A stretch of DNA of 42,669 nucleotides, taken from NCBI GenBank assembly GCA_945877545.1, contig CAMCSO010000004.1:1-42669 (forward strand), in the 5' to 3' direction. Below, one piece after another: positions 1,577 to 22,199 of the stretch (positions within the stretch are counted from its first letter, which is position 1; the number at the start of each line of letters is the position of its first letter). Source of the stretch: Bifidobacterium breve (GTDB lineage Bacteria > Actinomycetota > Actinomycetes > S36-B12). Under the pieces are notes generated by a model. It searched no databases and was not told the origin of the DNA. It was given only the letters and a program-made list of their open reading frames with translations. Both the position numbers and the translations under genes were made by a program.

Positions 1577-1623
1577 GTCTCCCCGCAGGTAAGCATGGTG
1601 TCCCGCGGCAGTCCGGGGAGACC
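1576..1623. terminator. inverted repeat ggtctccccg / cggggagacc at the end of the HepT-like gene
   Basis: 10-bp perfect arms at 1576-1585 and 1614-1623. Confidence 0.4.
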
Positions 1624-1656
1624 GTCCGCGTTGTTCCGTAGCACTGGGAGGCGTTC

Positions 1657-2436
1657 ATGATCCACGCAGGGGCACCATCGTCACCGGTCATTCTTCATGT
1701 GCCGCACTCATCGACGGCAATCCCCGCGGACGTACGACGAGGCATCCTGCTGGACGACGCCGCCCTCGATCTCGAACTCCTGCGCATGACGGATGCCTAC
1801 ACGGACACGATCGCAACTACGGCCGCTGCCGACGCAAAGACAACGCCATGGCGTTTCGTCAACGACCTCTCCCGCCTCGTCATCGACCCAGAGCGGTTCC
1901 CGGACGCCCGCGAGGAGATGCTGACCGCCGGGATGGGCGCCGTCTACACCCGCACCTCAGGCGCCGCGACGCTCCGCGCATCTGACGCCCTCGCAGAGGC
2001 AGGGCTCATCGCCCGCTACTTCACGCCCTACGCGACGGCCCTAGCCCACCTCGTCGACGATCGGCTCAACGCCTGCAGAGCAGCGACGATCATCGACGTC
2101 CACTCGTTCCCGAGCGTCGCCCTGCCATACGAGCTCCACTCGGATCTGGACCGGCCGGAGATCTGCATCGGCCGCGACGACACCCACACGCCGCAAATAC
2201 TCGTCGACGCAGCGGTGGAGGCCTTCTGTGGATTCGGCACGGTCGGCATCAACGAGCCGTTCATCGGCACGTATGTACCGCTCTCCCACTACGGGACGGA
2301 TCTGCGCGTGCGATCGATCATGCTCGAGGTGCGCCGTGACCTCTACATGGACGAGTCGAGCGGCGCGCCCAACGAGGGTGCCATGCGTGCGCTCGGCGCG
2401 GCACTCGCCCGCCTCATCGATTCCGCCGCCGAGTAG
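1657..2436 (+). CDS. N-formylglutamate amidohydrolase family protein
   Basis: VILHVPHSSTAIP N-terminus and IDVHSFPS / GTYVPLSHYG motifs typical of the FGase family. Confidence 0.75.
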   Translation: MIHAGAPSSPVILHVPHSSTAIPADVRRGILLDDAALDLELLRMTDAYTDTIATTAAADAKTTPWRFVNDLSRLVIDPERFPDAREEMLTAGMGAVYTRTSGAATLRASDALAEAGLIARYFTPYATALAHLVDDRLNACRAATIIDVHSFPSVALPYELHSDLDRPEICIGRDDTHTPQILVDAAVEAFCGFGTVGINEPFIGTYVPLSHYGTDLRVRSIMLEVRRDLYMDESSGAPNEGAMRALGAALARLIDSAAE

Positions 2437-2477
2437 ACGGCCAGCCACTGTCAGGGCTGGGGCGTACCTTCGGTTTA

Positions 2478-2610
2478 GGTCACGAGTGAACGACGCGAAG
2501 CCCCCTGGCTAGTCGTTCCGGCAACCGCGCGTCCCGTCGCACGGTGCCTCCCGGGGAAGACCGGCCCTGCCAATGGCTGGTAGGGAAGTAACGGGCCCAC
2601 AAGGGCCGGA
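2478..2610 (+). promoter_or_regulatory. SAM-IV-type (SAM-I/IV clan) riboswitch
   Basis: GGTCACGAGTG...GAAGCCCC...CCGGCAACC...GGTGCC...GGGGAAGACC; P1 GGTC (2478-2481)/GACC (2559-2562), P2 AACGAC/GTCGTT, P3 CCGCGCG..CGCACGG; CCGGCCC/GGGCCGG stem follows before ATG at 2623. Confidence 0.75.
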
Positions 2611-2622
2611 AACGAGTACGCC

Positions 2623-3579
2623 ATGTCCGCAACAAGCACTCCTGAGACCGCGTCGCTGCTGCCGTGGCTTTCGGGCAGCGGTCCGCAGGACCTGCCTGCC
2701 ACCCTGCAAGTCGAGCCTGAGCCCGGCGAGCCCGTGGAACTGTCGGGCTCTATCGCGAGGGGGTGGCTGCCTCGTCCGGCGGTGGACGTGGCGTCGTCGT
2801 GGCTGCGTCAGATCACCATGGTGCGATTCGGGCAGGCGCAGCTTCGTCTTCAGGCCAGGCTCGAGGAACCCGCCTTCGCGGGCGTCCAAGGCGATCAATA
2901 CGGACAGCGACCCGAGATGCGGTGGCCCCTGTCCGGCGAACTCCTCATCATCGGCGCGGTACGCGGACCGACCGCGACCTTCGACCAGGAGGCCGAATGG
3001 AGCCGGGACGAACTGACCCGCCAACTCACGGCGTACGGGATGCAGGCACTCCCCGCGACCACGTTGGACAGGCGCCACGTGTGGACCGAGCCCTCGGTGA
3101 TCGCACTGCCCGGCGCGCTGCAGGAGCGCCGCGATTCAGACTGGCAGGTGATGGCTCTGGACATCAGCAGGCGGCTCGGGATCCGCACCGTGGTGCGGGT
3201 CACGGAAGGCAGGTGGGAGGTGCTGACCCTCAGCGAGCCACCATCGCGACGATTCGACATCGCCGCGTCGGCCGCGTGTTCCCTCACTCGAGACGACGAG
3301 CATCGCTGCCCTATGCAGTTGGCACCTCAGGTCGGCGCATACTGCCGCATGAGCGGAGGTCCCTGGACCTCGGCGTCCATCGACGCGGCCGCCGGATGGC
3401 GCGACCAACGGAACCGACTCGTCACCACTGTCGGGTGCGACACTTGCGAAGGAACCCGCCACCAGTTCCAAGGCAAGATCCACAACAGCGGCGGACCGAT
3501 CACCATCGTCAATAGCCCCACACCCACCAGATGGCTCACCCCAGACGGGCGCCGGATGGACACCGACGAAGGACATTAG
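2623..3579 (+). CDS. hypothetical protein downstream of SAM-type riboswitch
   Basis: 318-aa ORF with several Cys in the C-terminal part (HRCPM, YCRM, GCDTC); no recognised family. Confidence 0.6.
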   Translation: MSATSTPETASLLPWLSGSGPQDLPATLQVEPEPGEPVELSGSIARGWLPRPAVDVASSWLRQITMVRFGQAQLRLQARLEEPAFAGVQGDQYGQRPEMRWPLSGELLIIGAVRGPTATFDQEAEWSRDELTRQLTAYGMQALPATTLDRRHVWTEPSVIALPGALQERRDSDWQVMALDISRRLGIRTVVRVTEGRWEVLTLSEPPSRRFDIAASAACSLTRDDEHRCPMQLAPQVGAYCRMSGGPWTSASIDAAAGWRDQRNRLVTTVGCDTCEGTRHQFQGKIHNSGGPITIVNSPTPTRWLTPDGRRMDTDEGH

Positions 3580-3984
3580 CGAGATGCCGGAACGCCTAGT
3601 GAATACGCCCTCGGCCCGCATGAGTCAAAAACTCTGCAGGCCCATCCGCGATCGGCAAGCTGGAGTAGGTGACGCGCGAGGCCAGTCGTGGGCTTGTACT
3701 CACTGGGCTTGAACATGCGCCGCACACCATCTCCGTCCCTGCCCAAATCTGACCTCCTCGACTGGCCCGTCGCTCCGGTCCGATGAACTTCAGGCCGCCT
3801 GATTTGTCCGGTTTCAGCGTGCGATAGACGTGCATAGTGAGGGGCTTTGTGCGCGCATCAGAGGACCCGAACACCTAGTGGTTGTCGCCTTCAATTTGAT
3901 TGGGCGCGTTAAAGTCCATAGCGCATAACTCCAAATAAAAGCGGGTGGCGAACGCCACTTTCGTAAGTACCACCTACCGGAAGG

Positions 3985-4912
3985 AACGTTCGCCAACATC
4001 GAGTACGCCCGTCTGACCTTGCAACTGCGCGAGGTCATCGAGAACATGCACGCCGATGGATACGTCCAGAGCGACATTGCTGCGGCGTTTGGGGTTGATC
4101 AGTCCACGGTCTCCCGAGAGCTGCGTCGCCGTCCCGAGGCCTACGCCGCCCGTCCGTGGCCTGCTCCGCGGCAATCAGCCGGGTGCGAGGCCTCGCCGTA
4201 CACATCCACCCGATCCTGGAGAAGTCGCTGGGAGACAACGTGCACCAATAGTCCGTCCTTCACATGCTCGTCGAGTCTGGCCGGCCAGCCGGGCTGTGCC
4301 CGTTCGGTCGGAATCGGATCGACCGGGAGCTCTCCAAGCACGCGCCGCGCGTCCACGTCCGACTCGCGGCCGAGATCTGACACGCCTCGCAGCTCAGACC
4401 GTCACCGTTCACGTCCCCGGAACCGCCGCGGCAGCGGCGGGTGCGGCGGCTGCGGCCAGGGTCTTGCCCGGCATCACGAGCCAGACCCTGCCGCCGAGAC
4501 CAGTGCAGATGAGTCGCCGAAGACGGCGAGAGGGTCCCTGATGCCTACCCTCTTGCCGAGGTCCTGACGTCCATGCCGGGAATCGGCGTCAGGATCGCAG
4601 CACGGTTCCTGGCCGAGTCCGGCGGCGGCGGCGGCGGCGCATTCCCCCACCGCCGCCTACTTGGCCGCGCATACCGGCCTCGCGCTCGTCATCAGGCGCT
4701 CGTGCAGCTTCATCCGAGCGGAGCACGTCAACCGCGGATGGAACAGGCCACTGAAGAACACCCTGTTCATGGCCGCATTCGAATCGCTGCCAGCCGAGGG
4801 TAAGAAGCACGACAGCGCACTCATCAACCTCGCCCGACGCAAGACCAACGTCATCTGCGCCATGGCCAGAAACCATAAGCGTTACACCCCCTCAGCCCGC
4901 GTCGCCGCTTGA
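3985..4912 (+). pseudogene. composite IS remnant: HTH (IS30-like) N-terminal piece joined to a frameshifted IS110-family transposase C-terminal half
   Basis: LTLQLREVIENMHADGYVQSDIAAAFGVDQSTVSRELRR; then VTVHVPGTAAAAA, LTSMPGIGVRIAARFLAESG, IRRSCSFIRAEHVNRGWNRPLKNTLFMAAFESL, KKHDSALINLARRKTNVICAMARN spread over several frames. Confidence 0.65.
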
Positions 4913-21830: not shown

Positions 21831-22199
21831 GGGGGTGAACGGTTTCGACGGACAGATGGTTTGACCGGAGAAGCGTGTCGAGAATCAAGGTGATCTCGTT
21901 AAGAATCCTTGACAAAAAATAACTGCCAAAAATACGCAGTCTGCTGAGTCCTACGCCCTCGCGGCGTAGTACATAGATCAGCCGTCAGCCCAATGCGTCC
22001 CCGAATTGGGGTCTGACGTCGCTAGGGGACTCACCAAGCGCTCCGGTCACGGGAGCGGGCGGAAAGCTAAACAGTGACTGGGCCGCCCGGTGCAGTGCCG
22101 CACGAAGCACCGGGGCCGAGAAGCGATAGCGCGGCTACACACGTAGAAGAACGGAAGGATCCTGCACGGACCCGGGTTCGATTCCCGGCACCTCCACCA
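21831..22199 (+). ncRNA. ssrA: tmRNA (transfer-messenger RNA)
   Basis: GGGGGTGAACGGTTTCGAC 5' end, tag ORF gcc..tag at 21925-21969 encoding AKNTQSAESYALAA*, 3' GGTTCGATTCCCGGCACCTCCACCA. Confidence 0.95.

Follow-up and report, generated by a model that had tools for sequence, protein, structure and literature searches.

Known SAM riboswitches almost always report the supply of methionine, cysteine or SAM. In the 42,669-nucleotide stretch of Bifidobacterium breve DNA analysed here (the window), a SAM-IV-like leader precedes a 318-aa open reading frame, ORF318, and the preliminary description offered two explanations: either a regulated met gene had been lost or replaced, or ORF318 is an unrecognised member of the SAM regulon. 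We asked whether the leader is a genuine riboswitch, which ligand it would sense and what it would control. The reading that we favour, with a probability of about 0.72, is that this divergent SAM-IV element senses SAM and controls the translation of ORF318, a gene outside methionine metabolism.

The leader and its divergent SAM-IV subclass

In a cmscan search, the leader matched RF00634 (SAM-IV) with 63.7 bits and an E-value of 4.1e-9 for the window, above the gathering score of 38 bits, and RF00634 was the top-scoring family of its clan at this position. A custom model of the divergent subclass, R1, scored the same element at 77.7 bits. The SAM-IV assignment in the preliminary description was therefore borne out, and the core motifs quoted there are present and pair as P1-P3 (Table 1). 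Its distance of 60 nt between the end of the aptamer and the start codon holds when measured from the P1 3' strand (about 60 nt), but from the end of the Rfam match it is 26 nt. The P1-P3 helices and PK-1 are backed by compensatory changes, with one mismatch in the window's own PK-1, and the window also carries a 7-bp P5 and a 5-bp PK-2, for which the evidence is weaker than for PK-1. The SAM-contacting residues GGUC ACGA, CAACC and GGUGCC match as well. Neither ORF318 nor the gene behind any divergent relative that was read provides the sulfur or methionine context usual for SAM-IV, a context that lies outside the definition of the RNA. Judged by sequence and covariation, the window element is a genuine riboswitch of SAM-IV architecture and a member of a divergent subclass from a single actinobacterial order.

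Table 1. Features of the leader, ORF318 and the co-conserved upstream gene in window coordinates.
Feature	Position	Strand	Basis
Divergent SAM-IV aptamer	2478-2596	+	RF00634 match; R1 match
P1 5' strand GGUC (partner GACC, 2559-2562)	2478-2481	+	RF00634 alignment; pair counts
P1 3' strand GACC	2559-2562	+	RF00634 alignment
P2: GAACGAC 2488-2494 / GUCGUUC 2512-2518; P2b 2499-2500/2509-2510	2488-2518	+	Sequence
PK-1: L2 CCCCUGG 2502-2508 / CCCGGGG 2550-2556, one mismatch	2502-2556	+	Pair counts
P3 with invariant CAACCG...CGGUG core: GGC 2520-2522/GCC 2546-2548; CCG 2525-2527/CGG 2542-2544	2520-2548	+	Alignments
P5 hairpin: CCCUGCC 2565-2571 / GGUAGGG 2579-2585	2565-2585	+	Sequence
PK-2: P3 loop CCCGU 2533-2537 / ACGGG 2591-2595	2533-2595	+	Sequence; subclass permutation test
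Candidate expression-platform hairpin GGCCC-ACAA-GGGCC	2594-2607	+	Conservation; minimum-free-energy fold
Candidate ribosome-binding region GGAAACGAG	2608-2616	+	Sequence; inference
ORF318, putative regulated gene	2623-3579	+	Homologues; dN/dS 0.31
N-formylglutamate amidohydrolase, co-conserved neighbour	1657-2436	+	PF05013, E 4.2e-47

RF00634 matches in 59 relatives form two groups, one with high scores (about 80-116 bits) and one with lower scores. The high-scoring copies that were examined precede genes that we take, from reading their sequences, to be metY-like, metK-like or ABC binding-protein genes, whereas the lower-scoring copies do not stand before met genes. Seventeen of the latter, with the structure given by hand, were used to build R1. 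With this model about 56 divergent copies were detected, spread over 38 of the order's 166 genomes, and not one was seen before a met gene. In the 17-member alignment, 94.2% of the pair cells are standard and 45 show both-sided changes; covariation scored 0.34, against 0.15 after shuffling (0/500), and stood far above slid controls. The sequences are related, so the shuffle count should not be read as a probability; the slid controls, however, preserve this relatedness, and sliding the partners destroys the covariation. PK-1 is among the supported helices, a 7-bp pseudoknot with both-sided changes at 5 pairs (17 variants), and P2a shows compensatory changes at all 4 counted pairs of the divergent alignment. 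For PK-2, the pairing of each loop with its own tail across the subclass beats swapped pairings, and the observed sum is attained in 112 of 50,000 permutations. A looser tail anchor raises this to 445 of 20,000 (about 2%), and we therefore regard PK-2 as supported rather than proven, the evidence being statistical and dependent on how the tail is anchored.

Among 397 genomes of the phylum, the strong matches outside the order proved canonical, and the ones inspected precede metY or aminotransferase/cysteine-desulfurase-like genes. A few of the weak matches outside the order are orphan SAM-IV-like elements from other groups. SAM-IV-like elements outside the order were seen at L237 (G450:C4:52000-59500) and L238, each before a different hypothetical gene, and two of these elements lie about 2.3 kb apart on one contig.

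ORF318 and the genes behind divergent copies

ORF318 has no Pfam match above cut-off and no likeness to a methionine or cysteine gene, in agreement with the earlier view that it is not a methionine biosynthesis or transport gene. It is a real gene, as indicated by a dN/dS of 0.31 against an 88% identical orthologue in a congener. The leader differs from that of the nearest orthologue at 4 of 145 nt while dS of ORF318 is 0.22, so the leader is under stronger constraint than silent sites. Protein and profile searches of 59 and up to 166 genomes of the order returned convincing homologues only in the genome of the window (G000) and in G002, G057 and G065, so that ORF318 is found in few genomes, with 4 homologues in total. 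G057 belongs to another family of the order and G065 to a third; both were found through protein similarity alone, and each carries the same type of aptamer immediately upstream of the homologue. Aptamer and ORF are thus linked in 4 of 4 detectable homologues across three families.

The four proteins have in common a C-terminal domain with the pattern CPx...GxxCxMxGGPW...GCDxC (about residues 229-275 of ORF318), or in a fuller form CPx...GxxCxMxGGP...IxAAAxW...GCDxC. This cysteine domain connects ORF318 with the G065 homologue, which carries DUF3293 (PF11697; 31 bits, E 4e-7). ORF318 itself reaches 14.7 bits, below the Pfam gathering cut-off of 25, and the name DUF3293 was rejected for it. No PDB relative of the four-member profile was found, and AlphaFold run on ORF318 with two sequences gave a mean pLDDT of 31.

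The four copies ahead of ORF318-type proteins are part of a wider set. Genes for HD proteins follow seventeen divergent copies; by profile these proteins match small alarmone hydrolases (PDB 7qoe, E 2.8e-62) and, at a greater distance, MESH1 and SpoT/RelA. These linked proteins, not ORF318, carry HD_4 (PF13328, E 7.1e-20) without a synthetase domain, and the HD..ED metal-site residues H63, D64, E67 and D68 are invariant in their alignment (A7). They make up 17 of the 54 stand-alone members of the small-alarmone-hydrolase family in the order, the remainder being unlinked. A further 11 copies are followed by members of a family marked by LCxxC...CxxC and a DWQ-type region at the C-terminus, in which all 11 intact members are aptamer-linked and two decayed fragments are not; its profile was built from linked genes, so this count is biased towards linkage, while the ORF318 result is unbiased. 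Other divergent copies stand before a CSCG...GH protein, a WhiB-like regulator, a protein that by eye resembles histone deacetylases, and small hypotheticals. At L054, L059, L061, L063, L145 and L176, the alarmone hydrolases are preceded by an uncharacterised small domain with a DWDDExSIxxFAxQxW-like motif, present as a short ORF or as an N-terminal stretch. At L168 (G102:C1:46500-52500), a divergent SAM-IV precedes a small CSCG protein, and next comes a gene resembling a DNA adenine methyltransferase, an enzyme that itself uses SAM.

The same genome holds three SAM-IV elements above cut-off. One on contig C78 (100.6 bits) precedes a metY-like gene, which from its sequence we take to encode an O-acetylhomoserine sulfhydrylase-like enzyme; the second is that of the window; and the third, on contig C260 (49.4 bits), precedes an HD-domain protein. 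The C260 element (G000:C260, L003:1445-2352) is a divergent SAM-IV, and the 258-aa HD_4 protein behind it is of the small-alarmone-hydrolase kind. No relative has a met gene after the aptamer of the window, and metY has its own, canonical SAM-IV, which leaves the idea of a lost or replaced met gene unsupported. When linkage was compared among relatives, the aptamer stood before ORF318 homologues and never before a met gene, and ORF318 is not unique to this strain; the proposal that it is an unrecognised member of the SAM regulon gained support from this linkage. A functionless leader that once served a met gene and now precedes an unrelated ORF by chance would fit the score of the element, 63.7 bits against about 80-116 for canonical copies, and its position in a variable region with transposase remnants. 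Such an origin would hardly account for a leader better conserved than synonymous sites, compensatory changes throughout the subclass and the recurrence of the leader ahead of homologues in three families. The sequence evidence argues strongly against it, and we consider it very improbable.

Ligand, mode of control and genomic context

The pocket of SAM-IV in the cryo-EM structure is formed by residues 2-4, 7-8, 63-65 and 77 (PMC6890682). In the divergent set, U3, A8 and CAACC are each kept in 57 of 57 copies and GGUG is invariant in the 17-member R1 alignment. G2, G7 and the G preceding CAA are likewise retained in the window copy, and SAM is therefore the most likely ligand of the window aptamer. 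The bases flanking the pocket follow the type of gene: copies linked to alarmone hydrolases (e.g. L054, L057, L061 and L060) always have C before CAACC and nearly always C-G at P1 position 2, whereas the window copy has G at both places. These changes could reflect an altered ligand specificity or be inherited neutral markers. They lie beside the pocket, and together with the non-methionine gene behind every divergent copy read and the precedent of SAM-I-derived spermidine riboswitches (PMC10853860) they would suit an RNA that keeps the SAM-IV fold and senses a different ligand, whether SAM-related or unrelated. We find this rather improbable, given that the window copy matches the SAM-IV pocket residues and has G at both flanking places, that the subclass shows no variation at U3, A8 or CAACC, and that the flanking changes track gene lineage and may be mere descent. 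A broader proposal treats the subclass as a regulatory system in its own right: its SAM-clan aptamers would tie alarmone (ppGpp-type) hydrolysis and a set of uncharacterised Cys-rich proteins, ORF318 among them, to SAM or a related metabolite, and some of the aptamers, those in which pairs beside the pocket have changed, might respond to another ligand. This remains tentative, and we rate it as unlikely.

The preliminary description had suggested as expression platform a CCGGCCC/GGGCCGG stem close to the start codon. The complementarity exists (2561-2567/2603-2609), yet the nearest orthologue has it only in weakened form (CCCGCUC) and the next relatives lack it, and the stem was rejected as a platform for its poor conservation. 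A local hairpin (2594-2598/2603-2607) is a better conserved candidate: it is kept in the orthologous locus on CAMAWO010000045.1 (L008), reappears in L052 and L143 in wobble or complementary form, and is part of the minimum-free-energy fold. It is not an intrinsic terminator because no U-run follows it. Across the divergent leaders, SD-like motifs lie ahead of 39 of the 53 assigned starts, and just 1 of 53 leaders contains a U-run. As no intrinsic terminator precedes the start codon, the window leader probably controls translation. In the window, at least 28 nt separate the PK-2 strand from the ATG downstream, so it is not obvious that this strand would block the ribosome directly.

For SAM binding, the direction of switching and the function of ORF318, we infer the following. 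The leader would fold as P1, P2a/b, P3 and P5 with PK-1 and PK-2, where covariation shows the helices and PK-1, and the permutation test supports PK-2. SAM would bind between P1 and P3, where its contacting residues are kept, and binding would stabilise P1 and PK-2. Because the PK-2 3' strand (2591-2595) overlaps the hairpin at 2594-2607 beside the ribosome-binding region, the state of the ligand would decide which of the two forms. Translation would be controlled in this way, and by analogy with known SAM switches repression of ORF318 at high SAM seems somewhat likelier than activation (about 60:40). ORF318, the small alarmone hydrolases and the CxxC proteins would then make up an accessory set of SAM-responsive genes, with leader and gene staying together.

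The block 1597-3836, which comprises the N-formylglutamate amidohydrolase gene, the leader and ORF318, is common to the window and G002:C45, and the flanks differ (blastn). Positions 3590-3850 hold a dispersed repeat that occurs twice on G002:C45 and partly on G000:C177, G002:C43 and G003:C67. In relatives, this repeat lies near what we take, from reading the sequences, to be AbiE-like toxin-antitoxin genes and a recombinase/integrase-like ORF, and near a tRNA-like end. The idea that this repeat is a cassette recombination site was set aside. The shared block with differing flanks and the dispersed repeat indicate that the leader-gene unit may lie in variable DNA. Elsewhere, the window contains an MntA-type nucleotidyltransferase and HepT-like RNase pair (toxin-antitoxin, 900-1576), an HTH_38 start of an IS30-type transposase with an apparent frame shift, probably a remnant (4019-4567), and a tmRNA gene (21831-22199; RF00023, 143 bits).

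With its patchy distribution (38 of 166 genomes), the MntA/HepT neighbours, unrelated flanks around an orthologous block, and a repeat found near AbiE-like genes and an integrase-like ORF, the unit could be read as cargo of a mobile element. The switch would in that case respond to SAM changes that stem from infection or competition (SAM-degrading phage enzymes, for instance) and not to nutrition, and the genes would serve defence or stress. The neighbours vary between homologues, and searches of phage, plasmid and IMG/VR collections with some gene families and one aptamer motif found no copies; we hold this explanation to be highly doubtful.

Comparison with known systems

The position of the subclass before small alarmone hydrolases and uncharacterised proteins suggests a route for SAM, or a related ligand, into the stringent response and other actinobacterial programmes, and it offers testable regulons for several uncharacterised protein families. 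By profile, the HD proteins behind 17 copies match small alarmone hydrolases, a group represented by RelH of Corynebacterium glutamicum and by PDB 7qoe and 7qoc; the description of RelH mentions no riboswitch (PMC5954133), and none of the papers searched combines 'S-adenosylmethionine riboswitch' and 'alarmone hydrolase'. SAM-I-derived spermidine riboswitches (PMC10853860) are a precedent for rare SAM-clan aptamer variants with unusual gene contexts; their SAM-contacting positions are changed and polyamine genes follow, whereas the window copy keeps the contact residues and is followed by an unrelated gene. The closest known system is SAM-IV itself (RF00634; cryo-EM, PMC6890682), with which the subclass has in common the layout of P1, P2a/b, P3, P5, PK-1 and PK-2 and the contact residues. 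It differs from canonical SAM-IV in the G after CAACC (57 of 57 divergent copies, against C in 15 of 15 canonical ones), a mostly 7-bp PK-1, a longer L2 loop, the absence of the CAAGCGCGG tail and genes that lie outside sulfur metabolism.
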